Origin: a virus
Strand: one strand, 5' to 3'
IMG/VR virus record: IMGVR_UViG_3300009285_005933
Location: 1 to 44,928 of that record
Length of the DNA stretch: 44,928 bases
The notes under the pieces were generated by a model. It was given only the letters and a program-made list of their open reading frames with translations. It did not search any database and was not told the DNA's origin. The translations under genes and the position numbers were made by a program. Shown here piece after piece: positions 7,425-41,779 of the stretch; within the stretch, counting starts at the first letter, position 1; every line of letters begins with the position of its first letter.

Positions 7425-7448
7425 CTCTTCAAGAATTTCTTAAGGAGT
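7424..7448 (+). repeat. 25-bp palindrome element, copy 2
   Basis: Arms ACTCTTCAAGAA and TTCTTAAGGAGT. It begins on the last base of the Sak4-like gene, and its right arm supplies AAGGAG, the SD of the protease gene at 7455. Confidence 0.92.
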
Positions 7449-7454
7449 ATAGAG

Positions 7455-8549
7455 ATGCCGAAACCAATCGACTTACTAACCCTACGAAATGTAGTGGGGT
7501 TCGGTGATGGGCAGAAGCTCAAAGGCGACGAGGTTACTTCTCGCCATTGCCTCACGGTATTCGTGAAGAGCAAGGTTGCTAAGAAGCAACTCTCCGAGAG
7601 CGAGATGGTGCCGAGTAAAGTAGATGGGGTTCCCACCGACGTAGTAGAGACTGGAGATCTAAAGCCACTCTCTGCCCCCTTAATGGGGGGTGACGCAGTG
7701 GGAGCTTATCCCTCCGGTACCTGGGGAACCCTCGGAGGAGTGTTCCGCGTGAATGGCCAGGATCTCGGGCTGACCAACTACCACGTCGTCACCAATCTCT
7801 CCGACACTCGCCGGGATAACCGTGGGGATTTCGTAGGCACTATCAACCCGAATACTGGAGAGCGCCTTAACCCCTTGGGACAAGTCCTAACGCACTCCAG
7901 CTTTCTCCCGGTAGATGTCGGGGCGGGCCAGAGCGGGTGCCTCTCAGACGCCGCTTTCTTCACCCTCACCAACTCCGGTGGGGACCCGCTCGTAGGGGAG
8001 CTTGGCTACTCCATCCCGGGCTCCAAAATGGATAGGTGGCATGATCAGCTTATCGGGCTCCCAGGAAAGCCGCTCGCTGGCTGGCCTCACTATCACCGCA
8101 ACTACTGCGGAATGTATCGTAGCCTGGGCTCTCCTCAAGACTTCACCCCGGCCGGCTTGGGAATCGCCCAGAAGCCAAGCGCGCTACTCGATACGGCGAT
8201 TCCCCTCCAGAAGTTCGGTGCCCGCACGGGCTACACGCGCACGGACATGACGTGGTGGAACACCACCTTCTCCTTGGACTACGGTGGTACTGTGGGAGTG
8301 GTGAACTTCTTCAAGCAGGGGTTCACCCGCAGAGGCCCGAACCAATCCCGTGTAATCTGTGCTCCGGGAGACTCAGGCTCCGCGTGCTTCGATATGCAAG
8401 GCTACCTCGTGGGCCTCTTGTTTGCGGGCTCCGAAATAGGCTACATCTACACCCCAATCTGGCTCGTCTTTAAGCAGCTATTCGCAGCTGAGCTTGTTTC
8501 GAAGCTCTGCCTGGATACCGAAACTTGGCGAAGGGTTCACGGGCCGTGA
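7455..8549 (+). CDS. Trypsin-like serine protease
   Basis: A 364-aa protein with a chymotrypsin-fold triad: His110 (LTNYHVV), Asp165 (CLSDAAFF) and Ser307 (APGDSGSACF). The N-terminal segment (CLTVFVKSK, then IPxxVDGVPTDVVETG-like) matches bacterial trypsin-like peptidases of the type that carry a small domain before the protease. No signal peptide is seen, so it should act in the cytoplasm. It lies inside the replication and recombination cluster, with its SD in a palindrome element. Substrate unknown; possibilities are host proteins, a phage precursor or a defence protein. Confidence 0.88.
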   Translation: MPKPIDLLTLRNVVGFGDGQKLKGDEVTSRHCLTVFVKSKVAKKQLSESEMVPSKVDGVPTDVVETGDLKPLSAPLMGGDAVGAYPSGTWGTLGGVFRVNGQDLGLTNYHVVTNLSDTRRDNRGDFVGTINPNTGERLNPLGQVLTHSSFLPVDVGAGQSGCLSDAAFFTLTNSGGDPLVGELGYSIPGSKMDRWHDQLIGLPGKPLAGWPHYHRNYCGMYRSLGSPQDFTPAGLGIAQKPSALLDTAIPLQKFGARTGYTRTDMTWWNTTFSLDYGGTVGVVNFFKQGFTRRGPNQSRVICAPGDSGSACFDMQGYLVGLLFAGSEIGYIYTPIWLVFKQLFAAELVSKLCLDTETWRRVHGP

Positions 8550-8597
8550 GCATTCGAGGCGCTCACTTGGGGAACCCCGTAACCCTTCGCTCGGAGG

Positions 8598-8618
8598 GTA
8601 GAGGCCACACCCCTCTAC
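8598..8618 (+). terminator. Hairpin in the 150-nt gap after the protease gene
   Basis: Arms GTAGAGG and CCTCTAC with a 7-nt loop. A smaller hairpin (ACCCT and AGGGT) lies just before it. There is no T run. The gap 8550-8699 otherwise holds no convincing gene or promoter. Confidence 0.45.
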
Positions 8619-8699
8619 TCTCCACCCTCGTAACCCGCTCTGGAAGCGCGGATACGCAAGAAAACTATCTCTCACACACTCTCACTCATAGGTGCTCTC

Positions 8700-9116
8700 A
8701 TGACCGAAGCTAGCCCTCTCGACCTAAACATGAACGACCGTCAGGATTTCCACTGCCTTCCCGCGGATGCCGAGGTGGAGCTGCGTATCACTAAGGCTGA
8801 GGTAAAGCCCACCAATTCCGGAGACAAGGTGGGGCTCAACCTAACTCTCGATTCCCCGAGCGACCCCCTCGCTTGGGATGTCCGCTACTGGATCGAGGTT
8901 CCCAAGGCGTGCCACCCGGGGGACGATGGGTACAAGAACTACCAGCGCACGCTCAACAACTACAAGGAACTCGGCGCTACGTTCGGTGTGGACTTCAACC
9001 GGCCCGTGGACCCGCGGGAGTTGGTGGGCCAGACCGGCTACGCCATTCTCGGACTGGAGGAGAACGAGGGCCGCACGCAGAACCGCGTGAAGAGGTTCTG
9101 TCCTCGTAGGCGCTAG
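8700..9116 (+). CDS. DUF669-like candidate ssDNA-binding protein
   Basis: 138 aa. The order of segments fits the OB-type DUF669 family: an N-terminal FHCLPADAEVELRITKAEV strand pair, a GDKVGLNLTLDS strand, a middle helix (NNYKELGATFG) and a final strand with LVGQTGYAILGLEE and NRVKRF. DUF669 proteins often sit with Sak4-like ATPases and act as their SSB partner, which fits the neighbours here. The tail is basic (RRR) and lacks the acidic end of classic SSB. Assignment is from pattern only. Confidence 0.6.
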   Translation: MTEASPLDLNMNDRQDFHCLPADAEVELRITKAEVKPTNSGDKVGLNLTLDSPSDPLAWDVRYWIEVPKACHPGDDGYKNYQRTLNNYKELGATFGVDFNRPVDPRELVGQTGYAILGLEENEGRTQNRVKRFCPRRR

Positions 9117-9515: not shown

Positions 9516-9615
9516 GATTCAGGTTAACCAACTCGAGAAGGCTCTCTCGGGGCTAACCTTGGAGCAGCTCGAAGCACTCCAACTATCACTCTTGGAAGGA
9601 AACTCAGATGGGTAG
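9370..9615 (+). CDS. Hypothetical basic helical protein, 81 aa
   Basis: ATG inside the previous gene with AGGGA 8 nt upstream. The N-terminal half is helical and basic (EALEALIQIRQKRRDRFAQ), the C-terminal half helical and acidic (LEKALSGLTLEQLEALQLSL). It overlaps the next start by 8 nt. Function unknown; an alternative view is that it is the frameshifted end of the gene at 9183. Confidence 0.55.
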   Translation: MDLLTQRKGLLQLPRAEALEALIQIRQKRRDRFAQKRAVGGIRTPRKGKIQVNQLEKALSGLTLEQLEALQLSLLEGNSDG

Positions 9616-10933
9616 CGAAGTTCTGATGCTTAACATTCCGATGGCTAATATAGCCTTTGGGGATAGAGTCCGGCAGGACTATAAGAATGTAGACACGCTC
9701 GCCTCCGATATCCAGAGGCGCGGGCTTATCCACCCAATCGCGGTACTCGCTACCCCAGGGGCCGAGAAGCCTTATCTCCTTCTTGCGGGTGGCCGCCGCT
9801 ACCTTGCCCTTGCTCTCCTTAGCACTCCCACCATTCCCTGTCGAGTCTACGAAGGGGAGCTCTCCACCCTTGACCGGAAGGAACTTGAGCTCTACGAGAA
9901 CCTCCAGCGGGAGAACCTAACCTACGCGGAACAAGTCGCCCTCACCAAGGAGATCCACGAGTTAGAGGTAGAGAAGCACGGCGCCGCGCTTGGCCCCTCT
10001 CCAGGCCAGTCTATGAGTGACACCGCTGCCATGCTTGGGAGGAGCGCTACCCAAGTCTCCCAAGATATAGCCCTCGCCCGCGCTATCGAGGAGAACCCCG
10101 AACTCGCTCAGCTTCGTAACAAGCACGAAGCGATGAAGGCCCTCAAGAAGCAGCAGCAAGAACTCTTGGACAAACTCCAAGTTGCTACCTTCGCTGCGAG
10201 CCAGCCCACGGCCACCACTCTCCTCAAGCAGAAGATCATAGATAGTTACCTCGTCGAGGACTTCTTCACTGGTGTTCAGAAGCTCCCAGATAGGACTATG
10301 AACTTCGTGGAGCTAGACCCACCCTATGGTATAGAGATGGACACCTCTATGAAGGGTGGGGAGATCACCACCAAAGACTACAACGAGGTAGATCGCGCAA
10401 CCTACCCCGAATTCATCACCCACGTTGCGAGGGAGTGCTACCGAGTCCTTCTCCCCAATGGGTGGCTCATCGCTTGGCACTCTGCCCAACACCACTCTGC
10501 CGTTAAGGCTGCTCTGGAAACCGTGGGGTTCCGAGTGGCTCCTGTGATGGCTGTCTGGGTAAAGCTCGCCGCAGGGATGACTCACCAACCCTACCTAACT
10601 CTCGCCTCTCAGTGGGAAGGCTTCTTCTACGCCTCTAAAGGCTCTCCCCAACTCATGAAAGGGGGAGTGGGAAACACCTTCCTCTATAAGCCCCCGGACG
10701 TAGCCCGGAGAATCCACCCAGTCGAGCGCCCACTCCTTCTTATGCAGGAGCTCGTCTCGCTATTCTGCCCGCCCAACGGCTACATGCTAATCCCCTTCGC
10801 TGGAAGCGGGGTGACTATTCTCGCCGCCCACAACCTCTCGATGAAGGCTATCGGGTTCGACCTATCTCAAGTTTACAAAGACGCCTTCGCTGCCCGCGTT
10901 GTCTCGGCGGATCTCCCGTTCATAACTCTTTAA
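9608..10933 (+). CDS. ParB-like / DNA methyltransferase fusion
   Basis: 441 aa. Residues about 1-110 form a ParB/Srx-type domain (RQDYKNVDTLASDIQRRG, LLAGGRRYLALALL, YENLQRENLTYAEQ). A helix-turn-helix follows near 130-160 (MSDTAAMLGRSATQVSQDI). The C-terminal half is an amino-methyltransferase with the catalytic DPPY at 237-240 before the AdoMet motif FAGSG near 397-401, the beta-type order. Likely role: site-specific adenine or N4-cytosine methylation guided by the ParB/HTH part, protecting phage DNA or marking sites. ATG with AAGGAAAC upstream. The TAA stop lies inside the palindrome at 10925. Confidence 0.88.
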   Translation: MGSEVLMLNIPMANIAFGDRVRQDYKNVDTLASDIQRRGLIHPIAVLATPGAEKPYLLLAGGRRYLALALLSTPTIPCRVYEGELSTLDRKELELYENLQRENLTYAEQVALTKEIHELEVEKHGAALGPSPGQSMSDTAAMLGRSATQVSQDIALARAIEENPELAQLRNKHEAMKALKKQQQELLDKLQVATFAASQPTATTLLKQKIIDSYLVEDFFTGVQKLPDRTMNFVELDPPYGIEMDTSMKGGEITTKDYNEVDRATYPEFITHVARECYRVLLPNGWLIAWHSAQHHSAVKAALETVGFRVAPVMAVWVKLAAGMTHQPYLTLASQWEGFFYASKGSPQLMKGGVGNTFLYKPPDVARRIHPVERPLLLMQELVSLFCPPNGYMLIPFAGSGVTILAAHNLSMKAIGFDLSQVYKDAFAARVVSADLPFITL

Positions 10934-25977: not shown

Positions 25978-27270
25978 TTAGGCGTTGTCCACACCTAAGT
26001 TGTTCAGGTACCCACAGCTCTGCGGGAAGTGCATCTCCAAGCCGCACTCGGTCAGGAACTCCTCGTCCTTCCCGTCCTTGCCAGTGCCCCCACCATTCCC
26101 ATAGCTGGTGTCCGGCATGAACTTGGTATCCGTGATGAAGCTGTAGACCAAGTTCGCGGGCTCAAAGACGAGCATCGCGTTTCGAGTTGTGGCTTCGTAG
26201 CTGAAGAGCGGATGACTCTTCAGATAAACCACTCCGAAGGGAGTGACCCACTCCATCACCTTGATCCCATAGGCTGCTTCTCGGACCGAGATGTTGTAGG
26301 CCCCTACACTCTTCACGAGCCGCTGGATTGCCAGGAGTGCCCCACTTCCACAGAAGGCCAGCCTCTCGTCGCTTCCGTACCGGAACATCTCCTCCAGGTG
26401 CTCATCGAGCCACTGGTCTCCAGCCTGGAGCCAGGTCTTCCCATCGTAGGCCGTCCCTGCATCCAGGCTGTAGTCCTCTACCGTCCCATACGACTTGATG
26501 TAGGGGATGATACCGTTGGTGGTAAGCTCCGGCTTCCCGTTGGAGCCCACGTTGCTGGAGAGCACCCCATGTAGGAACGCCTTCTCCATCTGAATCCCGT
26601 GCTGCTCCAAGGCGTCCCGCTTGACCTCCAGATAGGCGTCCTCAGTTCGGAGCTTGGTCTCCATCAGAGTACGCGTGATCTCCAGCGAATCGCGGAAGAT
26701 CTGAGTGTAGTTCTCGAACTCCGTAGGCCCCTGGCTGATCGCCTCGGGACGAGTACCACCCTGAGAATTGACACTTCCCACGATCAGCGCCGTATCACAG
26801 TCGGAGAGGTCATTCCCCGAGCCGTTGTCGTCCGCCTCGAGCAGCTTGACCGCGATGAAGCTACTCGCCCCATTCGCCACTACCCCAGTGACCTTCCCCA
26901 CACAGTCAACGGTGTAGTTGCTCGCGTCCCGCAGGAGCACCTGGTGTCCCACACGGAACAAGGCGTTATCCGCGGCACTCATCTTGAGGTAGAGGGTGCT
27001 CCCCGCCACGGCCCCACTTGCGTAGGCCGAATCCAGAATGGCATCCAAATACCTACCCGTGATGGTCGCCCGCTGGCTGGTGAGAGTCTTGGTCCACCAG
27101 TGGAAGTGCGGGTCGGTAACCTTCTGCTGCTTCATCATGTTCGTCAGCGCCGTTAGGGTAAGGCTCCCATTCGGGAAGAGCCTCAGCATCCCGGCCCGAT
27201 AGTGCTCCGCTCGCTCGTTGCTCACGAGGTCATCAGTTCCGCGGAGTCCCGCGAAATACGTATCAGCCAT
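25978..27270 (-). CDS. Major capsid protein, SU10-like HK97 fold
   Basis: 430 aa. The N-terminus (LRGTDDLVSNERAEHYRAGM), the FENYTQIFRDSLEITRTLM segment, the spine-helix-like KRDALEQHGIQMEKAFLHG and the C-terminal KSHPLFSYEA match SU10-type capsid proteins. It sits between scaffold/decoration candidates and the adaptor, and is followed by a strong hairpin, as expected for a highly expressed gene. Confidence 0.85.
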   Translation of the reverse strand: MADTYFAGLRGTDDLVSNERAEHYRAGMLRLFPNGSLTLTALTNMMKQQKVTDPHFHWWTKTLTSQRATITGRYLDAILDSAYASGAVAGSTLYLKMSAADNALFRVGHQVLLRDASNYTVDCVGKVTGVVANGASSFIAVKLLEADDNGSGNDLSDCDTALIVGSVNSQGGTRPEAISQGPTEFENYTQIFRDSLEITRTLMETKLRTEDAYLEVKRDALEQHGIQMEKAFLHGVLSSNVGSNGKPELTTNGIIPYIKSYGTVEDYSLDAGTAYDGKTWLQAGDQWLDEHLEEMFRYGSDERLAFCGSGALLAIQRLVKSVGAYNISVREAAYGIKVMEWVTPFGVVYLKSHPLFSYEATTRNAMLVFEPANLVYSFITDTKFMPDTSYGNGGGTGKDGKDEEFLTECGLEMHFPQSCGYLNNLGVDNA

Positions 27271-27273: not shown

Positions 27274-28089
27274 TTATACTCCCCTGAGTTGGACGACTTT
27301 TACCCAATCAACGATAAGAGCCGCAGCAACTGCCTCGCCATTCAAGATGACAAAGACTGGTGCCAGCGGGACGTTGTTGGGTACGGTGGCGGTATGAGTG
27401 GCAACCAGGCTTCCGTCTACCCAAAACTTAGCCGTGGTGCCGTCGAAGGTAAATCCTACTGTCATGTAGACCAGCGTGCCGATGTCCGCGAGGTCGAGAG
27501 AGGTTAGGGTAGTCGTGGTGTCATTATAGTCCTTCCGAGAGTACGCCTTCCACACTCCGAGAGTTGACCGCTCGAAGAATAGACCATCTTCCACACCGCT
27601 AGCCGCGTTTCCCAAGCAGTTAGTATCCCGCGTCATCAACCCAACGCGGAGGCTAGCCAAGGATGCAGCTATCTGGTACGGAATGATTCGTGCGGCGAAC
27701 CAAAGCTTGGCTCCCACACTAGCGCACGCCCGCGTGACATCATGGTGCCACTGCACATTGACACCATCGCCACTGGACGCCCCGGTAGTGACCACCATCT
27801 CTCCCATCCCGGGCACAGTCGCACCACTATCTCCTACCTCGACTGTGTTAGTTCCCTGAATAGCAGAGATCAACCACCCTACCTCATCGGAGCTATTCTT
27901 GAGGACCTGGTTAAACTCCTCAAAGAACTCTCCTGCAACCTCCGGGTCGACATGCGGCCCGGGAGCCTTCCCGAAGGGGCCATTCGAGGGGCTCTGCGCA
28001 AGTAGTCCATCCCTCACATGCGCCCGAGACTCCGACGAGGTCACCCCTACAGAAACCCCCTGAACCAGTAGCCTCCCCTTATCACTCAT
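27274..28089 (-). CDS. Lectin-like (ConA-fold) structural or decoration protein
   Basis: 271 aa. The second half reads as a concanavalin-like jelly roll: KLWFAARI, GLFFERSTLGVWKAYSR, VYMTVGFTFDGTTAKFWVDG and a final LIVDWVKVVQLRG. Such domains bind sugars or form beta sandwiches on virions. Its place just before the capsid gene suggests a decoration protein or head fibre. Confidence 0.65.
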   Translation of the reverse strand: MSDKGRLLVQGVSVGVTSSESRAHVRDGLLAQSPSNGPFGKAPGPHVDPEVAGEFFEEFNQVLKNSSDEVGWLISAIQGTNTVEVGDSGATVPGMGEMVVTTGASSGDGVNVQWHHDVTRACASVGAKLWFAARIIPYQIAASLASLRVGLMTRDTNCLGNAASGVEDGLFFERSTLGVWKAYSRKDYNDTTTTLTSLDLADIGTLVYMTVGFTFDGTTAKFWVDGSLVATHTATVPNNVPLAPVFVILNGEAVAAALIVDWVKVVQLRGV

Positions 28090-29302: not shown

Positions 29303-29597
29303 CTTCTGCCTCCCCTGAAATGGCGAGCCTCTCCGGCAGCTCCAGTACCGTGCGCAGGCTAAAGATCTCGCCCTGTGTGAACGCAATAGCTTCCAGCCGG
29401 AAGCCTTCTTGCGTGTTGGGACCCATGGTCTCGAGCTCATCTCGAAGGTTCATAATCAGCTGCAAGAGCGCAGCGCGATAGGCTAGCCAAATCTTAGTTC
29501 CTTGGAAGAGCTCCAAATCGCGAGGGGCTATTCCATACTCCTCAAACTTCTGTGCTAGCCCATTCTCAAAGGCGTGAACTATACTATCCCCTTTCAT
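29295..29597 (-). CDS. Hypothetical protein between portal and scaffold, 100 aa
   Basis: ATG overlapping the portal stop (ATGA), helical throughout (FENGLAQKFEEYG, YRAALLQLIMNLRDELETMG, ERLAI). In many phages this slot holds a small head-assembly protein. No family recognised. Confidence 0.65.
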   Translation of the reverse strand: MKGDSIVHAFENGLAQKFEEYGIAPRDLELFQGTKIWLAYRAALLQLIMNLRDELETMGPNTQEGFRLEAIAFTQGEIFSLRTVLELPERLAISGEAEGA

Positions 29598-31546
29598 CGC
29601 TGGGCTCCAACAGGTACCACGTTCCCCGCCTGGGCCATCTGTGCTACCTGCTCATCTGGCATTACCTGAGCCTGCATAGGCTTGGTAAAGTCCGAGATAT
29701 TCTTAGCCCCTGCCAGTGAGGCAAAGTGCTCGAAGATCCTCACTACATCGAACTGCTGCGCCAGTAGAGGATTAGCCCCCACTATCTGGAGTACCTGGCT
29801 CCACACATAGGGGTCTCCAGAGTTGGGTAAGCTTCCATCCCCCACTATAATATCCGCATCCACCAAGACATCCATAGGGTTCACCAATACCCGCTTGGCA
29901 TCCCCAAAGCGCTTCCGAAGCACCTCCTCCGAGTTGCCCATCAACCTTACATACTGTTCCCGCTCCAGAAACTGTTGGACATTCGACGCCAACATATATC
30001 CAAGGGGCTGAAGCGCCTGCATCCCACCTATCCGCGCGGCTTTCTCTATTCGGTTTAGCGCCGCAGTCTGGGTCCCCTGGAACTCCGCCGCGGTTACCCG
30101 CTCACCCCCTCCCCGAACAACCCCTTTGACGGCGTCCGTAGTACCAGTAATCATGTCCAGCAAGCGCGTCAGTCCCGCCACCTCGTCCACATTCGAGCGG
30201 GTGATGTCGGTCACGTTAAGCTGCATGACCGCATCCTTCACTCCATGCCCCCACGCCTTCTTTCTCAACCTAATGAGCTTCCCCGGCGCGGGCCTCTTCA
30301 AGTCTTCCATGTTGATAAGGGAGGGATCTACCACGAGCATGTCGTTCACGGCCTTCCTCACATTAGCCACATGGCTATTGTAAAGGAAGTTAGCCAAATG
30401 CTGGAGCCCGTATACCATCTCAAGCCGCGAGATCGGAGTGACTCCATACCCATCATAGTCCGGTGCGCAGGAGACTACTGGAAACATGTCATGGTCCAAG
30501 TTAGTCGGACCCGCGGTGATAAGTACCTGGTCCCCCGCTAGGCCAAAGACCCACTTCTCCGGGTAGTCCTTCTGCCCAAGCCCCCACTCCGCCGGGATGA
30601 TCTTGATATACATATAGGTGACATCCACCGGGCGACTCGCCTGCGCGCCCGGAGGCACCGAGTCCTTCACGCTATACCTATCCCGCGCGGATTGGTCTTC
30701 CCCGAGAACACTCAGCCCGGTGATATGCTTTACATACTTCCCATTGAAGTAGCTCGGATCATTAAACTCCCGAGAGAGCACATCACTCAGAGACTCCCTT
30801 CGAATCCACCCAATATACTCCCCCCGCTGAGTATCAGTCACCCCCACCGCGGTGTCGGGGAGTATGCTATACGGGTCGATATTATACAACTCATTCGTCT
30901 CGAACTTCAGGACCCGCTCCCGCTGCTTAGTCGCCCCCGTACCGAGCCATCCACTCACCGCCGAGAAGAACCCCTTCTCCACTGGCCTCGTCTGATAGGC
31001 GTATATCTGGCTCCACTGCGGGGTCAGCCATCCTGCCCCATAGCAGAAGGCGTCCCGAAACATCGTGTGGACCTGTAGCCCCATCCTCATCCGGCGGACC
31101 TGCTGGTCAATTAGTCGCTCCAGCAGCGCTGATCCCAACTCATCCTCGGGACCCACTCCCTCATACTTAAACACCGGGTTCTCCAGAAACGCCGCCACCA
31201 CATAAGCCAACAGTGTCTCCAGCACCGCATAGCTCAAGGGGACCACCAACGACACCGGCTTATTTGGGTCTTCACTCTGGAGTTTCTGCTCCGCCTCTGT
31301 AGTGGGAATATACGCCGTCATGGTCTCGTCGATCTTACGCCAACCATCATGCCTCTGGCTCATCGCGCCATGACTGAGCATCGCCCGCACTAACACCTCT
31401 TGCCGAAGCTTCTCGTGGAGCGCGGTTCCAGGCCTAAGCGCATTCCCCAAGGGATACTTATAATCATACTCTATATCCCAGAGGTTTCTCTGCTGCTCCG
31501 GCGGCCGAACGCTTCCAAAAGAGCTTGTATTTAGCACGACAGGCAT
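29594..31546 (-). CDS. Portal protein
   Basis: 650 aa, normal for podovirus portals. It shows RQEVLVRAMLSHGAMSQRHDGWRKID near the N-terminus, then VVPLSYAVLETLLAYVVAAF and later the GLTRLLDMITGTTDAVKG region before a helical C-terminal domain. It forms the dodecameric DNA channel and motor docking ring. The start overlaps the TerL stop (TAATG), and the stop overlaps the next ATG. Confidence 0.85.
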   Translation of the reverse strand: MPVVLNTSSFGSVRPPEQQRNLWDIEYDYKYPLGNALRPGTALHEKLRQEVLVRAMLSHGAMSQRHDGWRKIDETMTAYIPTTEAEQKLQSEDPNKPVSLVVPLSYAVLETLLAYVVAAFLENPVFKYEGVGPEDELGSALLERLIDQQVRRMRMGLQVHTMFRDAFCYGAGWLTPQWSQIYAYQTRPVEKGFFSAVSGWLGTGATKQRERVLKFETNELYNIDPYSILPDTAVGVTDTQRGEYIGWIRRESLSDVLSREFNDPSYFNGKYVKHITGLSVLGEDQSARDRYSVKDSVPPGAQASRPVDVTYMYIKIIPAEWGLGQKDYPEKWVFGLAGDQVLITAGPTNLDHDMFPVVSCAPDYDGYGVTPISRLEMVYGLQHLANFLYNSHVANVRKAVNDMLVVDPSLINMEDLKRPAPGKLIRLRKKAWGHGVKDAVMQLNVTDITRSNVDEVAGLTRLLDMITGTTDAVKGVVRGGGERVTAAEFQGTQTAALNRIEKAARIGGMQALQPLGYMLASNVQQFLEREQYVRLMGNSEEVLRKRFGDAKRVLVNPMDVLVDADIIVGDGSLPNSGDPYVWSQVLQIVGANPLLAQQFDVVRIFEHFASLAGAKNISDFTKPMQAQVMPDEQVAQMAQAGNVVPVGAQR

Positions 31547-33051
31547 TAGATTAGCACCCCACCTTCAAACGCGGGTTCATACTCAAGCTCCCGAAACTCG
31601 TCTTCTGGATCACTAGCATCCTCTAGCGGCTCGAAGTACTGCTCGTAGTGCTCCAGCACGAATAGTATTCCACTCACCGTATCAATAATATCCCACATCT
31701 CGGGGCGTGGCCACTGTAGTAGATACCTCTCCAACTTCCCAGCGATACGGCTATTGTGCCACACCAACCCCTGCCGGTAGAGAGGAATAAGCCCCGCGCT
31801 TCGCTTGGGCCCAGTCTTACCCTCCCGAGGCTTCACCTCCGCCACGATATAGTGAAGCCCCCGCCTAATCATTTCATTCTTTAGCGGGAAGGTTACGTAT
31901 TCATTAAGCCCCGTGACCTCAGGAGCCAAAACTAGTGCTCCTGTGCGCTGCGCCATGTTCAGCATAGCGTCATACATCTGGTCCGGGCTAAACTTCCCCG
32001 CTTCAATATCCCGCACATAAAGTGCGTTCGTTACGGTGTTCACCGCCACGCAGGTGACCGCGGTGTCCGCGGAGCCCTTAGTCATAGTTCGCGCGGGGTC
32101 TGCTAAGATAACCGAAGTTACGTCCGGGTTCCTCATCAACTCCGCTTCCGTTACTCCCATCTGGTCATAGTAACGAAAGTACTCCGCCTTGAACCCTTGG
32201 TCTTCCTTAGCTATCGGGATGTTCCTAAACTCTCGATATGCTACTTCCAGCTTCCCCGCGCGCCTATACTCGTCCAGGAGCTCCGCTATTCCTTGATCGC
32301 TAATGTGCGCGGGCCAATTCGAGTGCCCAAAGTCATCCCAAAGCTCTAATCTCGTTCTAGCCCACCGCGGGAACTGCTCCGGATTAAGCAGATTCGACAG
32401 GAGCGAGTCCTCGTGGAGTACCGTACCAATCACGATCACACGCCACTGCCGCAGGCTAATATCGACGCTATTGAGCAGCGCCGAAAGGAACCACCTCTTT
32501 AGCTTGTCCCGCCCTTCCTCGCTCTCCACGTCCTCATCATTCTCCAGGTCGTCCACAAGTATGGTGTCCGGCCTTACCATCTTGTGCTTTCTTCCGCGGA
32601 TCTGCTGGCCTGCGCCTCGGGGAAGCACCTTACATCCCGTACTCGTTACCCATGCCTTCTGCCCAAACTGATCCTCTTGCCGCTGGGGCTCGAAGTTCCC
32701 AAACACCAGCTGCAAGTCTTCATTATCAATCAGGGCATTTTTAATTTCCTCCCCTTGCTCCACCGCACTATCGTTCGTAGCGCTCACTGGGACGATATAC
32801 CGAGTCTCCCTAAGCACTATCCTCCTCACCGCATACACCGTCCCAACTATTGTACTCTTTCCGATCCCGCGTGGAGCAGCAATCACCGCCCGCTGTATTG
32901 TGGGATCGTCCAAAATAGTGAAGATCTCCTCGTGCAGCTGCGAGAAGGGTTTAGTAAAAGCCTGTGGAAAGAAGCTCTGTGCGAAGACCTTATTACTCCG
33001 CACGCACTCCGCCACCAGCTCTTCTATTTCCTTCTCGTTGTTAACTAGCAC
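31546..33051 (-). CDS. terL: Terminase large subunit
   Basis: 501 aa. ATPase: Walker A PRGIGKST at 60-67, Walker B TILVDDLE at 163-170 and a coupling GT near 209. RNase H-like nuclease: first Asp in SVILADPA near 303, then APEVTGLNEY. It packages DNA into the capsid with the portal. The small subunit lies 7.7 kb away, split off by the fibre and exported-protein genes. SD is formed in the end of the preceding 102-aa gene. Confidence 0.92.
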   Translation of the reverse strand: MLVNNEKEIEELVAECVRSNKVFAQSFFPQAFTKPFSQLHEEIFTILDDPTIQRAVIAAPRGIGKSTIVGTVYAVRRIVLRETRYIVPVSATNDSAVEQGEEIKNALIDNEDLQLVFGNFEPQRQEDQFGQKAWVTSTGCKVLPRGAGQQIRGRKHKMVRPDTILVDDLENDEDVESEEGRDKLKRWFLSALLNSVDISLRQWRVIVIGTVLHEDSLLSNLLNPEQFPRWARTRLELWDDFGHSNWPAHISDQGIAELLDEYRRAGKLEVAYREFRNIPIAKEDQGFKAEYFRYYDQMGVTEAELMRNPDVTSVILADPARTMTKGSADTAVTCVAVNTVTNALYVRDIEAGKFSPDQMYDAMLNMAQRTGALVLAPEVTGLNEYVTFPLKNEMIRRGLHYIVAEVKPREGKTGPKRSAGLIPLYRQGLVWHNSRIAGKLERYLLQWPRPEMWDIIDTVSGILFVLEHYEQYFEPLEDASDPEDEFRELEYEPAFEGGVLI

Positions 33052-33360
33052 CTATGCCACCCCCGCCTGGGCGGTCCAATCTACCCCACCACTCACATTG
33101 ATATTCAGTATGTTGATTAGCCTATCCGTTACGGTGTCATCTGTGCACGCCACAAGCGCCACATCTGTCCCACTCTTCGGAGGGCCACCCGAGGCAAGCA
33201 TCAGGTTCATCGTGATCTCTACTGCTGCCTCATCCAGCCCCTGCGCCTCCAGCTGCGTTTCCAGCCTCGCGGCATTCTCATTGATCGACACTAGCTGCGT
33301 CAGCAGCGTCTGCGCCCTTGCGAGAATCACCCTTCGCGCGGCACAAGTAATCCCAGCCAT
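33052..33360 (-). CDS. Hypothetical protein before TerL, 102 aa
   Basis: Helical N-terminal half (RAQTLLTQLVSINENAARLE) and a C-terminal half with small beta segments. It abuts TerL and follows the membrane-protein genes by 5 nt. Function unknown; a packaging accessory role would fit its place. Confidence 0.6.
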   Translation of the reverse strand: MAGITCAARRVILARAQTLLTQLVSINENAARLETQLEAQGLDEAAVEITMNLMLASGGPPKSGTDVALVACTDDTVTDRLINILNINVSGGVDWTAQAGVA

Positions 33361-33628: not shown

Positions 33629-33805
33629 CTACTCCTCCTGCTTACGGCCCGTCATGACCTTCAGCGCCTCTCGAATCGTGTCCACCACAAAGTCGTCCAC
33701 TGGCCAAGGCGTCACCTTCGCTATCTTATCGAGGATATACAGAACCCCAACAGTCTTCAGCCAGTTCGCGCTCACCCATGCCACCACCAGGTCTACGTAT
33801 TCCAT
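33629..33805 (-). CDS. Small amphipathic protein, 58 aa (holin-like candidate)
   Basis: Too short for a 60-residue cut-off. The N-terminal helix (EYVDLVVAWVSANWLKTVG) leads to VLYILDKIAKVTPWPVDDF and a charged tail. SD AAGGAG lies in the palindrome at 33812, 7 nt before the ATG, which firmly supports the start. The next gene follows after 5 nt. Pattern and neighbours suggest a lysis or membrane-linked role. Confidence 0.65.
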   Translation of the reverse strand: MEYVDLVVAWVSANWLKTVGVLYILDKIAKVTPWPVDDFVVDTIREALKVMTGRKQEE

Positions 33806-33811: not shown

Positions 33812-33836
33812 ACTCCTTAAGATATTCTTGAAGAGT
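33812..33836 (-). repeat. 25-bp palindrome element, copy 9
   Basis: On the coding strand: arms ACTCTTCAAGAA and ATCTTAAGGAGT. It starts on the last base of the fibre gene stop and gives the SD of the 58-aa gene. Confidence 0.92.
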
Positions 33837-36800
33837 TAGTTCGCGCAAGCACACTTGGACACTTTGGCCTCCAACACCGAGACCCGCTGCAGCAAATCTT
33901 GGATAAGCAGCGTCTGGGCGTTGGTAATAATACCCGAGTTGAGCTCTCCTTTCTTAGCTAGCGCGGGAGCCAAAAGCCTCTCTATCGGGTAACTCTCCTG
34001 GGCAATAGGGCCAAAGCCCGGCTTCCCATCGGCCTTCCAGGCGTATCGGTATACTCCCATCTTGGCGAATTGCTGCCGAAGCTCGACAATGCTGGACTGG
34101 GGAACCTTCTGGAACTGGGCCTTCAAGGTAGAATCCGAGGAGACAGTAAACGTCGCGGAACCTGCATCGATCTTGCTATACGTAGCGCCTTCATACACCG
34201 AGAGCCCGTATCCTCCATCGTCCCCGCTACCGAAGGTTACATTCCCACTCCCCTCAAAGCGGTGTTGGGTCAGGGTACCTCCAGTATACATAAACCACTT
34301 CCGGTACGCTCCATTCTCATTCCCACTATCGGCATACCAGATATCGCCCAGAGAAAGATTCTTAGCAGTACCGAGATACCCAGCCGTAGCACTAAGGATA
34401 GTATTAGTCGAGATGTCGTTGCTGTAGACTAGGTACTCTTGAACCAACCCTCCCGCGCGAGTGAGTTTGGTGGTATTAACTAAGTTGGTAGCGCTAAAGC
34501 CCCCATTATTTTTAGTTCCATCTCCCACTAGAATGGAGTGTTCCCCCACAAAGAGTACGTCTCCATCCTGCTGCACGGAGATTCTAACCGAGTCCATCGT
34601 AGCTAAGTGGAGTCCTTGAGTATCGGCTACAGCCCCCGCAGAGATTACCATGTCCCCAGCGAGAGCTCCAATCGCAAGCCCCCCAGCGGCCACCCGGTTG
34701 ACCCCAATCTTGGCACTCGACGCGCTATTAGCAAACCGCATCCACGCCGAGGAGTCCCCAAAGGTCCACGCGGCAATCGCGGGCTTTGTCTCACTATAGA
34801 CATCCAGAAGCTCTGCTTGGTCGGTAGCAGCCGTAGTTCCTACCCTCATGCCCTCGGCGTAGATGGTAACCGCGCGCCCTGCAGCCCCTTGGGTAGCGAG
34901 GAACACCGTAGAACCCGTTAGATAATCATTAGCCTTCCGCGTGATTGAGAAGCTTCCCCCAGTGGTATACAGCTCCCAGTTCCTATATTCCGTCGTGCCC
35001 CCGGGGTTGTGCAGTAGTAAGGAAGCTTTGTTAGCCGAAGGCGTCCCCCGCACTTCCATTGGGCCAATCGCAGTCACTGTTCGCTGCGGCACCGCGGTTG
35101 TCGTAGCCCGTTGGAACTCCATGACCGTGGTGGAGTCCGCTCCTACTGGGGTCCACCCAGTAACCCGGAGCCCTCCATCCTTCAGGCCAACCTGCCACAC
35201 ATCATCCGTATCGGGCAAATCCTCAGAGAATAGTATCTTGGGCTCCGTAGGAGCTCCCTCCAGCGAGAGGCCCCCCTTCACATTAGCAACCAACCCACCA
35301 AGATAGGCGCCGTCATCATCGTCGTAGCCCAAGTTAAAGGCTAGCCCCGTAAACGTCCACGAAGCCGCCGATCCGGCGCCATTAGTAATATGAAGCACCG
35401 TATCGCTAGCCGCATCCGCGCTGCTCCGAAGCGTCCAGAGCATATCCCCACCGGCGTTTTCCAGTTGCCACTTCGCCTCGCTAGCCGCAGCGTTCGTATC
35501 CCATATCTGCAAGTTGGGAGTAGTGTTCTTAACCGCCACATCTGGGCGGATCATCAGGTTGGCAATAGCACTCCCACTATAGTCCGAATACATCAGCGTA
35601 TCATTATTTTGGTATATCTGGAAGTCTGGCCCCGTGCCTACCGCCTGCAGGTAGACCCGCTCGTCGCCTCCAGTACTCATCAAGCCAAGATACCCTGTCT
35701 GAATGAGTTGGTTCCCCGCCACCACGATCTTGTCCAACGAAGTATAACTGGTCCCAGCCCCCGTAGGGCTAGCTACCCTAACCGAGTCAAACGCGGTAGT
35801 ACTAATCGCAGTGGTAAGCCCCGTCACCCTCGCCGCAGGAACCGTCCCGTGCAGCAGCACCCCATTCGAGTCCCACCCTGCGACGAACTCACTATCTCCT
35901 TGGGTCATACTAAAGGTGAGAGTTCCGGCTCCAGGGAGATATACCATCTGTACCGTGTTGCCGTAGTCCTCGCGAGCTACCAACCGTAGCTGCGTTGCCC
36001 ACGCCGAAGCGGAGGCAACCTCGATCGCTACAGTAGAGTCATTAACCCCGCCCGCGCGCTCCCCAAGCTGGAGCTTAGCATAAGCCCCCGAGGGCTGCGC
36101 GGTCCCGCGGATCTTTGCATTAGTACTCCCATCGAGAATCAGCACGCTGTCTACAATAGCGGCCTTGATCGTGGGCTGGAGCTTTCTAACATACTGCCCA
36201 GTACCCGTCGAGTAGAAGTCTGCAACAAAGGAGTCCAGAACCGCGGCTCTCGGCTGCGCCCCAATGCTATCCCGGGCCCCCGCCGCTGTCGCCGCCCGGT
36301 ATACCCCTCTCCCAATGACTCCCATGGAGTACTTCGCCGCGGTATCCAAGTCGGCGTCCCAAGCCTGCACGTTAGTCCCAATTGCAAGACCAAGGTTAGT
36401 CCTAGCCGCCGAGAAGTCCGCCGAACCAAGCAACGTTTGAACATTGGCACTTGGGGTGATTCCAGCATAGGTAGTGAGATCGGCATCATACGCCTGAACG
36501 TCAGTTCCCACTACCACATCCAGCGAGTCCCGAATCGCGGCGAAGGTAGCCCCCTTAAGAATGGACTTTCCTTTAGCTCCCGCCGCGAAGGACGCCAGCG
36601 TGTCCAAGTCTGCGTCCCATGCCTCAACATCCACTCCCGCTACCACATCAAGGCTATCTCGAGCAGCAGTGTAGGTTGCTGCCTTGTTAAACCCCTGAAT
36701 GTTAGCGCTCGGGGTGATAGCGCCCCATAGGTCTAAGTCACTATCTTTCCTCTGCAGGCTATCCCCAATCACACTAACCCGCATGAACGCGCCAGTACCA

Positions 36801-39800
36801 AGGCTCCCCGCGATAAATAGGTCCTTCGGAGCCCCAGTCAACTTAAGCGTTCCAGTCGTGCTAATTGGCCCCCCGGTGATTCCACTATCGCTAGCCACAT
36901 TCGTAACAGTTCCAGCTCCAGCCGCGGCCATTTGAGAGAGCACCCATCCCCGGTTGGCAACCTGTAGCGACTCCGCTGGGTCCACTGCAACGAATAGGCG
37001 CTGTGCGCGGGTGGTATCAGTCACCGCGTCCCCCAGTGTCGCCCCGCCGGTCTGCCAGGTGCCGCCCTCGCCGTCGAGAATCCAGACGGTGGTGTTGTAG
37101 TTGCGGATAGAGAACAGGTTGCCGTTTGCCGCTACAGCCTGACCACCCGCGCCGCCATTAGTGACAGCGACGTTGGCGTTAATGATACCGTAGCCCGCCG
37201 TTGATTTAGTGGTGTTTGCAGCCTCTCCCAGATAGCCGATCAAACTCAGGGCATACCCAGCAATGCCAGCACTGTCTTTGTATCCACGGATCTGAAGGCC
37301 GCCCGATGTGTCCTCGGCCTTACGGAAATCTCCCCAGGTGGTCGCATCAGCGTCACCAGTGAACGGGTGTGCTACCTCTGATGCTTGAAATGTCAAAGCG
37401 TTATCGTCGTTAGCTCCCTGCGCCACGAGCAGCGACGGCCCAGCGGCGAAGGCGGAGGCCGTAGCGGTGCCGATGAGGACGGGACCACCTTTCTGTAGCG
37501 CCAAAATATCTGTGCCAGATTGAGGATCACCATCAGCAGCAGCACTAACAGTGAAGTTCATGTCCCCGTAAACATTGCGATTGGTCGAGATGGACCAGTT
37601 GCGAGCATCTGGTTGTGCTGCAACTGTAGTATACATTCGCAACACAGTTCTACCGGGACTAGTAACCCTCATGCCGTCAATAGTGGCCGTAACGACATCC
37701 AATGGGTAGCCCGGGCTCACCGTCCCGATGCCGACGTTGCCGCTGCCCAGGACGGTGACGAGGTTGGTGCCGTAGTTATCTAACTGCATCACCGTTTCGG
37801 AAGCGTCAAGAGCTTGCCAGCCAGTGCTGCCATTAGTTTTACCACCACGGATGTTGATAGCAGGTCTGGTGTCAGCGGGATTAATTGATCCAATAATTCC
37901 AGTTAGCACCATACCAGTGCCGTCGTCATCCGATAAGCCCCACAGACGAACACCTCCCACTGTATCGCTAACTGGATCTATGTGTAGTAGTGCATTGGTT
38001 GGCGCTAAGGCCGTCATCCCATGCACTATATCCGCATCCGTCAGGCTGAAGTTCCCATCCCGCAGGTCTAGCTTGCTCGCGGGAGCAGCGATACCGATGC
38101 CGACGCCAGTAGAGGTAACAGATGCTATCAGCGTTCCTGTGCGTGTCGCGTTGTTGGCTGCGGCGTATAAATTGATCGCCGTAGCTGCATTTGTACTAGC
38201 GTCACCCCCACCCAGGCTGACGACATTCGTCGCTGTTCCACCAAAGCCAAGTAGCGTCGAAAAACCTTCAGTCTCCGTCCCACTATCGTAGTTCGGAGTG
38301 ACCAGCTGGAAGTACTTGTTTGCATCATCAGTAGAGACATTTGATCCTGTAATTATGCCAGAACCACCTACGAAGTTAATATCTCCTGCTGCTGTAATGC
38401 TGACTGCCGGGTTCGGCGACCCGTCGCTGGCGCTCAGTTCCGAGTGCCGATGGAGCGCGTCCGCCATCGAGTCGTCCCGCAGCGTATTCAAGTTCGCCAT
38501 CGACCCAGTGTAAGCGACACCCCCGAGCTTGAAGTTCGTCGCCGTGCTAATGTTGGCTGATGCCGCCGTCAGCCCTGTCGTGAACGTGCTCGCAATCGTC
38601 GAGGTCAGCCCCGCCGGGAACGTCGCCAGACCGGTCAGCGTCGAGGTCCCCGTTACCTTCAGCGTCGAGGCCGTCAAGCCGCCCGTGAACGCCGGCGCTA
38701 GAGCGCTCGTCACTGGGCCATCGAGATTCGTAGTGCCCGTTACCTTGATCGAGGAGGCAGTCAGTCCCCCAGAGAAGCTCGGTGCGAGGGCACTCGTCAC
38801 TGGGCCATCGAGATTGGTCGTCCCAGTTACCGTAATACTGGAGGCAGTCAACCCCCCACTGAAAGCAGGCGCCAGCATCGAGGTGACCGGCCCAGTCAGT
38901 TGTAGGCTAGCGATCTTCGCGTGGTTCGCGGTCAACCCCCCGCTAAACACTGGGGCCAACGCAAACGTCGCGGGGCCCGCAGACTGTAGACTCGCTATCT
39001 TTGCGTGGTTAGCCGTCAAGCCCCCGCTGAACACCGGAGCTAGTGCGAACGTAGCGGGACCAGTAGCCTGAAGACTTGTGACCTTCGCATGGCTCGCGGA
39101 GAGACCCCCAGTGAAACTGGGGGCTAAGGCACTCGTAATAGGCCCCACAAAGTTCATCGTGCCAATGAATCTTGTAGTGCCCTTAATCGTATCTGGGGTG
39201 ACTGAAGTAGCCGCTATTGTCTGCCCCGCGGGAATTACCAATCCCCCATCGGCCCTCACCACTCCCGAGAATACCAATGAGTCAACCGTAGAATCCTCAA
39301 AGCGAATCCGAATACCCCCCACGATGCCTATCACCGCTCCATCAGTAACCTGAATAGAGTCTGCGGTAAAGAGTACCGTGTCCAGCGCGGAGTTCCCAAA
39401 GGTTACCTTCCCCTGCGTAGTAAGCAGCCTAACCGCCGCAGAGTCCAGAAAGACCAACCCATTAACACTGTCTACCTGAATCGCCCCATGGTTATTTCTC
39501 AGGGAGTCCCCAAAGGCTACCCTCAACAGAGTAACCGAAGTGTCTCCTACGATAAGCTTAAGCGCGGTTACCGAGTCCACCAGCGCTTGCCGAATACTAT
39601 CACTCGTGTCCGATAGAACTCCGCGAATCTCCAACATCGAGTCGGGAAGCGCTACGCCGGTCACGCTACTACGAATAGCACTCGCTGTATCCGCGAGCTC
39701 TGGCCGTCTAATCGCGGTCCCACCCCACTGAGCATAAACGCTAGTAGCCCCCAACACCAAGGCTACCAGCGCACTCTTCAAGAAATTCTTATAGAGTCTC

Positions 39801-39802
39801 AT
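33836..39802 (-). CDS. Giant tail fibre with signal peptide and S74 chaperone domain, 1988 aa
   Basis: The N-terminus (RLYKNFLKSALVALVLG, then TSVYA-Q) is a model Sec signal peptide, unusual for a virion fibre. Residues about 215-395 are six tandem 28-29-residue repeats; about 1020-1170 are repeats of the type ITPSANxQ and VxAWDADLDT. The C-terminus (about 1885-1985) has SSDSTLK and a final coiled coil, the intramolecular chaperone of Peptidase_S74 type, which trimerises and self-cleaves at the Ser-Asp step. ATG at 39802 has AAGGAG 8 nt upstream. Codons 2-10 are a palindrome element. Likely receptor-binding. Confidence 0.85.
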   Translation of the reverse strand: MRLYKNFLKSALVALVLGATSVYAQWGGTAIRRPELADTASAIRSSVTGVALPDSMLEIRGVLSDTSDSIRQALVDSVTALKLIVGDTSVTLLRVAFGDSLRNNHGAIQVDSVNGLVFLDSAAVRLLTTQGKVTFGNSALDTVLFTADSIQVTDGAVIGIVGGIRIRFEDSTVDSLVFSGVVRADGGLVIPAGQTIAATSVTPDTIKGTTRFIGTMNFVGPITSALAPSFTGGLSASHAKVTSLQATGPATFALAPVFSGGLTANHAKIASLQSAGPATFALAPVFSGGLTANHAKIASLQLTGPVTSMLAPAFSGGLTASSITVTGTTNLDGPVTSALAPSFSGGLTASSIKVTGTTNLDGPVTSALAPAFTGGLTASTLKVTGTSTLTGLATFPAGLTSTIASTFTTGLTAASANISTATNFKLGGVAYTGSMANLNTLRDDSMADALHRHSELSASDGSPNPAVSITAAGDINFVGGSGIITGSNVSTDDANKYFQLVTPNYDSGTETEGFSTLLGFGGTATNVVSLGGGDASTNAATAINLYAAANNATRTGTLIASVTSTGVGIGIAAPASKLDLRDGNFSLTDADIVHGMTALAPTNALLHIDPVSDTVGGVRLWGLSDDDGTGMVLTGIIGSINPADTRPAINIRGGKTNGSTGWQALDASETVMQLDNYGTNLVTVLGSGNVGIGTVSPGYPLDVVTATIDGMRVTSPGRTVLRMYTTVAAQPDARNWSISTNRNVYGDMNFTVSAAADGDPQSGTDILALQKGGPVLIGTATASAFAAGPSLLVAQGANDDNALTFQASEVAHPFTGDADATTWGDFRKAEDTSGGLQIRGYKDSAGIAGYALSLIGYLGEAANTTKSTAGYGIINANVAVTNGGAGGQAVAANGNLFSIRNYNTTVWILDGEGGTWQTGGATLGDAVTDTTRAQRLFVAVDPAESLQVANRGWVLSQMAAAGAGTVTNVASDSGITGGPISTTGTLKLTGAPKDLFIAGSLGTGAFMRVSVIGDSLQRKDSDLDLWGAITPSANIQGFNKAATYTAARDSLDVVAGVDVEAWDADLDTLASFAAGAKGKSILKGATFAAIRDSLDVVVGTDVQAYDADLTTYAGITPSANVQTLLGSADFSAARTNLGLAIGTNVQAWDADLDTAAKYSMGVIGRGVYRAATAAGARDSIGAQPRAAVLDSFVADFYSTGTGQYVRKLQPTIKAAIVDSVLILDGSTNAKIRGTAQPSGAYAKLQLGERAGGVNDSTVAIEVASASAWATQLRLVAREDYGNTVQMVYLPGAGTLTFSMTQGDSEFVAGWDSNGVLLHGTVPAARVTGLTTAISTTAFDSVRVASPTGAGTSYTSLDKIVVAGNQLIQTGYLGLMSTGGDERVYLQAVGTGPDFQIYQNNDTLMYSDYSGSAIANLMIRPDVAVKNTTPNLQIWDTNAAASEAKWQLENAGGDMLWTLRSSADAASDTVLHITNGAGSAASWTFTGLAFNLGYDDDDGAYLGGLVANVKGGLSLEGAPTEPKILFSEDLPDTDDVWQVGLKDGGLRVTGWTPVGADSTTVMEFQRATTTAVPQRTVTAIGPMEVRGTPSANKASLLLHNPGGTTEYRNWELYTTGGSFSITRKANDYLTGSTVFLATQGAAGRAVTIYAEGMRVGTTAATDQAELLDVYSETKPAIAAWTFGDSSAWMRFANSASSAKIGVNRVAAGGLAIGALAGDMVISAGAVADTQGLHLATMDSVRISVQQDGDVLFVGEHSILVGDGTKNNGGFSATNLVNTTKLTRAGGLVQEYLVYSNDISTNTILSATAGYLGTAKNLSLGDIWYADSGNENGAYRKWFMYTGGTLTQHRFEGSGNVTFGSGDDGGYGLSVYEGATYSKIDAGSATFTVSSDSTLKAQFQKVPQSSIVELRQQFAKMGVYRYAWKADGKPGFGPIAQESYPIERLLAPALAKKGELNSGIITNAQTLLIQDLLQRVSVLEAKVSKCACAN
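38610..39160 (-). repeat. Six tandem ~28-residue repeats in the fibre gene
   Basis: Each unit contains LAPxFxGGL followed by TAxxxKI or SSIKVTG and ends near GP. Units 2 and 3 are nearly identical, which suggests recent expansion. They should form a long, thin shaft. Confidence 0.75.
39773..39797 (-). repeat. 25-bp palindrome element, copy 10, encoding the fibre signal-peptide n-region
   Basis: On the coding strand: arms ACTCTATAAGAA and TTCTTGAAGAGT. It begins 5 nt inside the gene and encodes RLYKNFLKS-like residues, parallel to LLKNILKS encoded by copy 1. Confidence 0.85.
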
Positions 39803-39814
39803 CAGCGGGGCTCC

Positions 39815-40237
39815 TTAGTAGGTACGATTCAGCTGAGGATCACGGACTACTGTAGCCGCACCATTAGCAGTAAATCCGCGGAAGATGAAGCGAAGCCTTC
39901 GAGAGACTGGCACGGAGGGCTGCCAAAGCACCTTCCCCGATGCCGTCACCGCGAGAGAGTCTACCCGAACCCACGAGGTGTCGTTCCCCGCCTGGGCTAC
40001 GATGTAGACTTTCACCGAGTCTCCTCCGAGTACGCAGGAGATGCTATTGTAGGCGAGGGGGCCCCAGGTATTAGTCGTATCTTTCCCAGTGGCCCCAATC
40101 ACCCTTAGCACGGTACTATCAGCGGTAGCGGAGCCCCGATAGAGCTTATTCGTGACAATATCGGGGGGCTGAGCAGCAGCAGAGACAGCCAGAAGCAAGG
40201 CTACCCCTCCAAGCCAGTACGCGAAAGGCTTGCTCAT
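39815..40237 (-). CDS. Exported protein with signal peptide, 140 aa
   Basis: MSKPFAYWLGGVALLLAVSAAAQ is a clear Sec signal peptide with AAA-Q cleavage. The mature protein is beta-rich and Thr/Val-rich (STVLRVIGATGKDTTNTWGP, SVKVYIVAQAGNDTSWVRV), like a small Ig or jelly-roll domain. ATG with GAGGGA upstream. It lies between a lipoprotein and the signal-bearing fibre, so the three may act together at the cell surface. Confidence 0.7.
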   Translation of the reverse strand: MSKPFAYWLGGVALLLAVSAAAQPPDIVTNKLYRGSATADSTVLRVIGATGKDTTNTWGPLAYNSISCVLGGDSVKVYIVAQAGNDTSWVRVDSLAVTASGKVLWQPSVPVSRRLRFIFRGFTANGAATVVRDPQLNRTY

Positions 40238-40238
40238 C

Positions 40239-40760
40239 TTAGCTTCCCTCAGTTATGATGGTACCTCGTGCGATAGTGGGACGGGCCTCGGAGATTCGAC
40301 GAATCTCGGGGATTGCCCACTCCAGAAGAGCCTGGTATGTAGCAATTCCTGCGGGAGGAGTCACATCTTTGTTGAGCGGCACGGCCGCATCGCCGTCTCG
40401 GAACACCCAATGGAGGCGGAGAGCTACCTTGAGGGGACCGCTGCGCACGATCACCCGCTCGTCGTAGCTTGCGCGAGAGATAGTAGAATCCTTGGCCGCA
40501 AAGGTCTCCACTAGCTCCAGCGCGCCCAAGTATTCTTCGGGCAATGCCCTCCCAAGCATTACCTCGACGGGGCTAACCGCGGAGTCCAGCGGGGTTCTGG
40601 TAAGCACGATAAAGCGGTGCTGCACCGTGCCGCTCTCTTGGAGAAGATGAGTAGCCACAAACAGGGAGTCCTCGGCAACGACTAGGGGACGTCGCTCGCT
40701 TTGCTCGCCGGAGCAAGCAACGAGTAGTACTACGCAGAGGAGGGAGGATAACTTCTTCAC
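40239..40760 (-). CDS. Lipoprotein, 173 aa
   Basis: The N-terminus MKKLSSLLCVVLLVAC has a basic start, a hydrophobic core and a lipobox LVAC, with the acylated Cys followed by SGE. The mature part has mixed strands and helices (LFVATHLLQ, HRFIVLTRTPLDSA, QALLEWAIPEIRRIS) with no known domain. GTG start overlaps the TerS stop (GTGA), with CAGGAG upstream. Phage lipoproteins often block receptors or DNA entry of rivals, which fits its place beside the fibre, but this is inference. Confidence 0.75.
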   Translation of the reverse strand: MKKLSSLLCVVLLVACSGEQSERRPLVVAEDSLFVATHLLQESGTVQHRFIVLTRTPLDSAVSPVEVMLGRALPEEYLGALELVETFAAKDSTISRASYDERVIVRSGPLKVALRLHWVFRDGDAAVPLNKDVTPPAGIATYQALLEWAIPEIRRISEARPTIARGTIITEGS

Positions 40761-41263
40761 GCTGCAATCTCCTGGAACTCCACTACGAGGGGTTCCTCTA
40801 TAGAGTTGTGGTTGCGTGCGCGGGCCTTAATCTCCTCGATCTTCTCAGAGGTAAGGAACCCATGCGCCACGGCGGCTTGGACCTTCTGAACCCTACCGTA
40901 CCCCGCGCGAGATAGCAAATCGCAGGCTACCTGAACCCGGAGCTTGATCGGGGCGTCTGGAGCATCCCGGACTTCTTGTAGGAGCTCCAGACTCCTCACG
41001 GCGTCTTCCTGAAGCGCCTCCATCACGTCGATAGTAGCCCCGTCCGCTTGAGCCTGGAGCATCTCCAAACGCCGCTGGACGATGGGGCTACTCAATACAT
41101 CATGCACATTCTGGGGGGTTCGCCCGGTGATCTGGGCAATATCCCGCTGGTGAAGCCCCAGCGCCGCGAGACGGATCATCTCGTGGTGGGTCTGCTGGAT
41201 CTTCTGGACAGCATATCCGGTACCCGCGTCCACTTGGAGTACCGTGGGGGAAGTCCGGGACAT
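40757..41263 (-). CDS. Terminase small subunit (candidate)
   Basis: 168 aa. An N-terminal HTH (HHEMIRLAALGLHQRDIAQI, then GRTPQNVHDVLSS) is followed by a helical oligomerisation region (QEDAVRSLELLQEV) and LRVQVACDLLSRAGYGRV, as in many phage TerS proteins that recognise the packaging site. It is near the head of the late block. It is far from TerL, so the call rests on domain pattern. Confidence 0.65.
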   Translation of the reverse strand: MSRTSPTVLQVDAGTGYAVQKIQQTHHEMIRLAALGLHQRDIAQITGRTPQNVHDVLSSPIVQRRLEMLQAQADGATIDVMEALQEDAVRSLELLQEVRDAPDAPIKLRVQVACDLLSRAGYGRVQKVQAAVAHGFLTSEKIEEIKARARNHNSIEEPLVVEFQEIAA

Positions 41264-41750: not shown

Positions 41751-41779
41751 AATATAAACTCTCCTTCCCAAGTTGTCAA
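41751..41779 (-). promoter_or_regulatory. Promoter P2 for the late block (TTGACA, 17 nt, TATATT)
   Basis: On the - strand -35 is 41779-41774 and -10 is 41756-41751, separated by 17 nt. It is the only - strand match seen and faces the whole 26-kb virion block. The leader to the first gene is about 95 nt and purine-rich. Confidence 0.85.

Follow-up and report, generated by a model that had tools for sequence, protein, structure and literature searches.

Tail fibres and tailspikes are, in the textbook view, folded and mounted on the virion in the cytoplasm. Phage fibres and spikes with a C-terminal S74-type chaperone, such as the K1F endosialidase and the L-shaped fibre of phage T5, are not known to use a signal peptide in their assembly. 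In phage SU10, the long tail fibres dock on the adaptor via their N-termini (PMC9509320). A search of open-access papers turned up no account of tail fibres or spikes being exported. The MAT fibres of Bdellovibrio form a group whose members share a conserved beta-rich domain of ~130 aa right after the signal. These mosaic adhesive trimers sit on the cell surface and have a signal peptide, and 13 of 21 end in an autoproteolytic S74 domain (PMC10769870), a precedent indicating that S74 trimers with a signal can be exported and displayed.

Here, we analyze a 44,928-base IMG/VR virus record, IMGVR_UViG_3300009285_005933 (hereafter, the window), in which a giant fibre encoded next to the terminase genes starts with a predicted signal peptide. 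Its major capsid protein (25978-27270, minus strand; PF17236, SU10_MCP, E 6.7e-32) and portal protein (29594-31546, minus strand; PF23899, SU10_portal, E 2.2e-20) are of the SU10 type and, thus, the virus is an uncultured podovirus of an SU10-like lineage. The nearest named relative is Desulfofustis phage LS06-2018-MD01 (MD01; OP947158.1), which has the same gene order in the core block and in which the capsid and portal proteins are 44% and 38% identical to those of the window. One gene (9608-10933, plus strand) joins a ParB_N domain to an N6/N4 DNA methylase; at the same place, MD01 has a "ParB-like partition protein". On the minus strand, the late genes run from TerS through the lipoprotein and the small Sec protein to the 1988-aa fibre; three small genes then separate the fibre from TerL, after which come portal, scaffold, capsid, adaptor, nozzle, and ejection proteins. 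The slot of interest is bordered 5' by the terminase small subunit TerS (40757-41263, minus strand; PHROG 2538, E 0.01), homologues of which are up to 50% identical within the lineage, and 3' by the large subunit TerL (31546-33051, minus strand; PHROG 38, E 4e-70). Upstream of TerS and the three genes lies a promoter-like site, TTGACA-17-TATATT (41751-41779, minus strand; 11 of 12 consensus bases), and the number of such sites in the region is not above chance. Directly 3' of the fibre is a small membrane protein with no function assigned (33629-33805, minus strand; PHROG 402, E 3e-4), and just before TerL is a 102-aa gene (33052-33360, minus strand), of which the relatives L037, L031, and L035 have two tandem copies (55-57% and 50-53% identical). 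Beside the capsid gene, a weak LamG/ConA-like protein (27274-28089, minus strand, E 0.003; 42% identical in L032) is probably a head decoration and is the only candidate binding protein of the window's virion besides the fibre.

The initial annotation had placed three adjacent genes for exported proteins in this slot, and all three open reading frames are found there on the minus strand, each starting with a signal as a sequence feature and each preceded by a Shine-Dalgarno sequence. The first (40239-40760) encodes a lipoprotein of 173 aa; its GTG start overlaps the TerS stop, with CAGGAG 8 nt upstream, and its signal, MKKLSSLLCVVLLVA, is followed by the Cys of a canonical lipobox, LVAC, with Ser at +2. 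The second (39815-40237) encodes a small Sec-type protein of 140 aa, for which the heuristic predicts the signal MSKPFAYWLGGVALLLAVSAAA followed by QPPD and for which the AlphaFold model has a mean pLDDT of 36. The third (33836-39802) encodes the giant fibre, 1988 aa, with a repeat-rich shaft and a coiled-coil tail. Its Sec-type signal (39731-39802, minus strand), MRLYKNFLKSALVALVLGATSVYA followed by QWGG, is predicted by the heuristic to be cut after residue 24. The fibre's ATG has AAGGAG 8 nt before it and an in-frame stop 5 codons upstream, and a scan of the first 90 codons found no other in-frame start with a Shine-Dalgarno sequence. Because this sole Shine-Dalgarno start precedes the signal, translation beginning downstream of the signal, a possibility raised initially, is unsupported by the sequence. 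Sequence searches with the fibre gave no matches in phages, IMG/VR, or the PDB; after these direct searches came up empty, relatives of the lineage were reached through TerL and portal profiles.

The fibre was also said to end in an S74 chaperone, and this description holds in part. An S74-like intramolecular chaperone with a C-terminal coiled coil is placed at residues 1889-1988 (33839-34138, minus strand). The SDxxxK motif (S1889, K1894; residues 1889-1894) sits exactly at the start of the domain, and its Ser and Lys, but not its Asp, are kept in L035 and L037; the Pfam match itself (PF13884, residues 1889-1938, E 7e-4, 20.3 bits), however, falls below the curated cut-off of 22. The AlphaFold model of this end has a pLDDT of 34. 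The only two Cys in the 1988 residues (1984 and 1986) lie within the last five, CACAN (33839-33853, minus strand); in an exported fibre, they could link the chains by disulphides.

Signals were scored with a hand-written n/h/c-region heuristic rather than SignalP; the features scored are basic residues in the n-region, a hydrophobic core free of charges, and either an AxA site or a lipobox. We applied it to the open reading frames of ~160 related loci of the SU10-like podovirus lineage, with starts picked blind to the signal. Signals were called in 0 of 450 core virion and packaging proteins (capsid 70, adaptor 54, nozzle 31, portal 117, TerL 111, TerS 42, and ejection 25) and in 50 of 389 other open reading frames of at least 250 aa. 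These 50 are mostly fibre- or beta-helix-like, and a few are false calls, e.g., on glycosyltransferase-like proteins. The background of the heuristic is 0.6% of shuffled N-termini and 0.15% of internal segments. An earlier, looser version was replaced because it made false calls on terminases and glycosyltransferases, and, owing to their non-canonical lipoboxes, lipobox-like calls on the long spikes of L087 and L117 were discarded. A phage lysozyme (3705-4346, plus strand; PF00959, E 5e-27), encoded far from the late operon, has an N-terminus that is signal-like by the looser score; the protein is probably a signal- or SAR-type endolysin and, thus, lysis too may use export.

The trait recurs across the lineage. 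Half of the near-complete contigs (14 of 28, the window and MD01 being among the 28, which were reached by TerL and portal profiles and not by the trait, and are not a random sample) encode at least one late-strand protein of at least 250 aa that the heuristic calls exported, while none of their 283 classified core open reading frames received such a call. Seven named phages were also scored: six relatives (Kuura, VS-ABTNL-3, Mel-JY34, PaP2, Tiera, and MD01) and MD02, a long-tailed phage from the same aggregates as MD01 that lies outside the lineage. Their 118 open reading frames of at least 250 aa gave no signal calls except one on a helicase at an internal start; none of the fibres sampled in these phages carries a signal, in agreement with the initial view that a signal on a phage fibre is unexpected. 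On a portal tree, the trait is scattered over the whole tree; truncated contigs make the label "none" unreliable, and we therefore claim no count of gains or losses. In L004, a contig with a far more distant TerL (27%), an 862-aa protein (6404-8992) also has a Sec-type signal, which hints that the trait extends beyond this lineage. A scan of genome contigs for hosts returned five MAG contigs only, one of them nominally archaeal. These contigs (L178-L182), which have names such as Clostridia, Micrarchaeum, and Patescibacteria and carry a TerL of this lineage, are probably misbinned phage contigs, and we therefore make no host call.

The initial annotation had further proposed that the three exported proteins may form one complex, with a possible role as decoys, in receptor masking, or in exclusion of other phages. 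The closest relatives do not bear out the single complex. In L037 and L035, TerL is 57% identical to that of the window, and L032 and G014 are the same phage as L037 or nearly identical to it. L037/G014 and L035 keep the order TerS, small Sec protein, and giant signal-bearing fibre of ~1900 aa. The small Sec proteins of L037 and L035 are 30-32% identical to that of the window and occupy the same place (36% for L037 over the best segment); the one in L035 has a signal-like start that the strict score missed. By contrast, no homologue of the lipoprotein was found in the lineage loci compared or, by a pattern-based scan, in IMG/VR. Thus, conservation extends to only two of the three genes, those for the small Sec protein and the fibre, which travel together.

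Comparison of the slot between TerS and TerL across relatives reveals a swap between two kinds of N-terminus. Conventional fibres of the lineage start with the motif PTDxxLVSELPxYIR, which, judging from its position at fibre N-termini, would dock fibres to the tail. In G032, the slot holds a 930-aa spike that starts with this motif, EPVDTVEVSELASYIR, and has no signal. MD01 resembles the window in having its fibre gene next to TerL and a lipoprotein gene nearby; unlike in the window, this fibre (37139-39109) lacks a signal and has the docking motif, PTDDVLVSDLPSYIR, at its N-terminus. In many other relatives (e.g., L015, L064, L066, L073, L095, L105, L107, G023, G030, and G034), the same slot holds beta-helix spikes that start with a Sec signal and lack the docking motif. 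No docking-motif protein was called as exported, and no signal-bearing protein has the motif. In the window, the motif is absent by pattern and by profile. Between the portal and scaffold genes, several exporting genomes also encode a cytosolic protein of ~154 aa with the docking motif; this protein is absent from the window and G014. One homologous module occurs both ways, after the adaptor gene in each case: exported in L085 and cytosolic in G026. In some relatives, genes that look glycosyltransferase-like and radical-SAM-like from their translations are inserted between TerS and TerL (L011, 2421-6357; upstream of TerL in L089, L095, L105, and L107).

The exported spikes also inform on the nature of the signals. 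In the best-sampled family of beta-helix spikes, the family sequence begins right behind a called signal in 15 members. Across 17 exported beta-helix spikes, identity is 36% in the signals, 54% on average in the first 112 mature residues, and 30% in the remainder. At 36% identity, the signals still have basic n-regions, cores free of charges, and sites of the AxA type. Because they keep their character and not their letters, they behave as export signals do. A conserved N-terminus followed by a variable remainder is typical of receptor-binding proteins that attach via the N-terminus; here, the partner may be the virion or something in the envelope. The exported beta-helix spikes of G018, G022, G023, G025, G030, and G034 start with a module of ~90 aa repeated several times in tandem.

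Given that the signals exist as sequence features, would not be expected on phage fibres, and recur across the lineage, their likely meaning is export, and we consider Sec export of the fibre highly probable. We suggest a model in which the host Sec pathway exports the 1988-aa fibre and the signal is cleaved. Folding outside the cytoplasm follows from Sec export, and the fibre would fold and presumably trimerise there aided by its own C-terminal S74-type chaperone; an intramolecular chaperone needs no ATP and would, thus, suit the periplasm. After its release at lysis, the fibre may bind receptors or glycans outside the cell. Its conserved partner would be the small Sec protein, and the lipoprotein would be a local addition that may serve as envelope anchor or outer-membrane spanin. 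Altogether, we favor this account, i.e., export by Sec, folding outside the cytoplasm, release at lysis, and action outside the cell by a device that recurs across the lineage, as moderately likely to be correct in full. In a diderm host, Sec reaches the periplasm only, and we found neither an outer-membrane exporter nor an anchor for the fibre. As to the fate of an exported fibre, the chances are about even that it stays unattached to virions, either in the medium or at the cell surface, in decoy, receptor masking, or exopolysaccharide processing; loading onto virions after lysis is somewhat unlikely, and some other fate distinctly so.

Among the alternatives, the one that survives best is a free decoy or receptor-masking fibre, or an exopolysaccharide-processing enzyme, that never enters the virion, which we regard as possible and hold tentatively. 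In purpose, it would be closest to phage receptor-blocking lipoproteins such as Llp of T5. The signal taking the place of the docking motif in the same gene slot points in this direction, as do the several different exported beta-helix proteins per genome of some relatives, which match the Pfam Beta_helix or pectate-lyase-like families, and the canonical lipoprotein gene that adjoins the fibre in the window. However, no other tail-fibre candidate was found in the window, which counts against a free fibre, as it leaves the window's virion without an identified one; moreover, both the enzymatic sites and a surface anchor are putative, and the lipoprotein is not conserved.

That same lack of another tail-fibre candidate, in the window and in G014, speaks for a second alternative, in which the virion binds its receptor with this fibre, which would be produced in the periplasm, apart from head and tail, and join the tail only when lysis mixes the compartments. 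The conserved first 112 mature residues and variable rest of the exported spikes fit the pattern of virion-docked receptor-binding proteins, and the N-terminal module that follows the signal in L085 is cytosolic in G026, where it is encoded, as in L085, after the adaptor gene. It also counts in favor of such loading that P22 tailspikes join finished particles in vitro. However, no protein with a signal has the docking motif of the lineage, several of the exporting genomes encode an additional, cytosolic protein with that motif, and dilution at lysis would make loading inefficient. We consider this alternative rather unlikely, and give a similarly low probability to a two-compartment virion assembly in which heads and tails are built in the cytoplasm and fibres and spikes in the periplasm, the two meeting only at lysis.

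Less probable again is that the hydrophobic N-terminus is a structural element, e.g., a membrane-inserting or packing peptide, of a virion fibre assembled in the cytoplasm. Fibre N-termini normally bind the tail, as in SU10; however, a docking peptide should keep its sequence, whereas here the signal architecture is kept at 36% identity. In addition, the adjacent small protein also bears a signal in the window and in L037, and in the window the gene just upstream of it encodes a canonical lipobox, which makes this reading doubtful. Finally, chance hydrophobic starts or wrong start codons are a very improbable explanation: although the heuristic gives a few false calls, e.g., on glycosyltransferase-like N-termini, the shuffle rate of 0.6%, the absence of calls among the 450 core proteins, the Shine-Dalgarno sequences at most signal-bearing starts, and the signal conserved before the N-termini of 15 members of one spike family all argue against it.

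Returning to export followed by action outside the cell, a lineage with export signals on its fibres would either finish its virions outside the cytoplasm or routinely release free receptor-binding proteins, which would then be a routine weapon or shield of phages. Both readings are testable, and they bear on host-range prediction because fibre annotation assumes a location in the virion.

The window fibre can be compared with several described systems. With SU10 and the kuraviruses, the window shares the major capsid and portal families; unlike in SU10, no docking N-terminus of the SU10 type is visible. With the S74 fibres and spikes represented by the K1F endosialidase and the T5 L-shaped fibre, the window fibre shares a putative C-terminal S74-type chaperone, the SDxxxK motif, and a long repetitive fibre, and it differs from these in its Sec-type signal. 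Like the MAT fibres, it is phage-like, starts with a signal peptide, called by the heuristic in the window, and has a C-terminal S74-like end, comparable to the S74 domain of those 13 MATs. However, whereas the MAT fibres are a predatory bacterium's own and are displayed on its own surface, the window fibre is encoded in a phage late operon.
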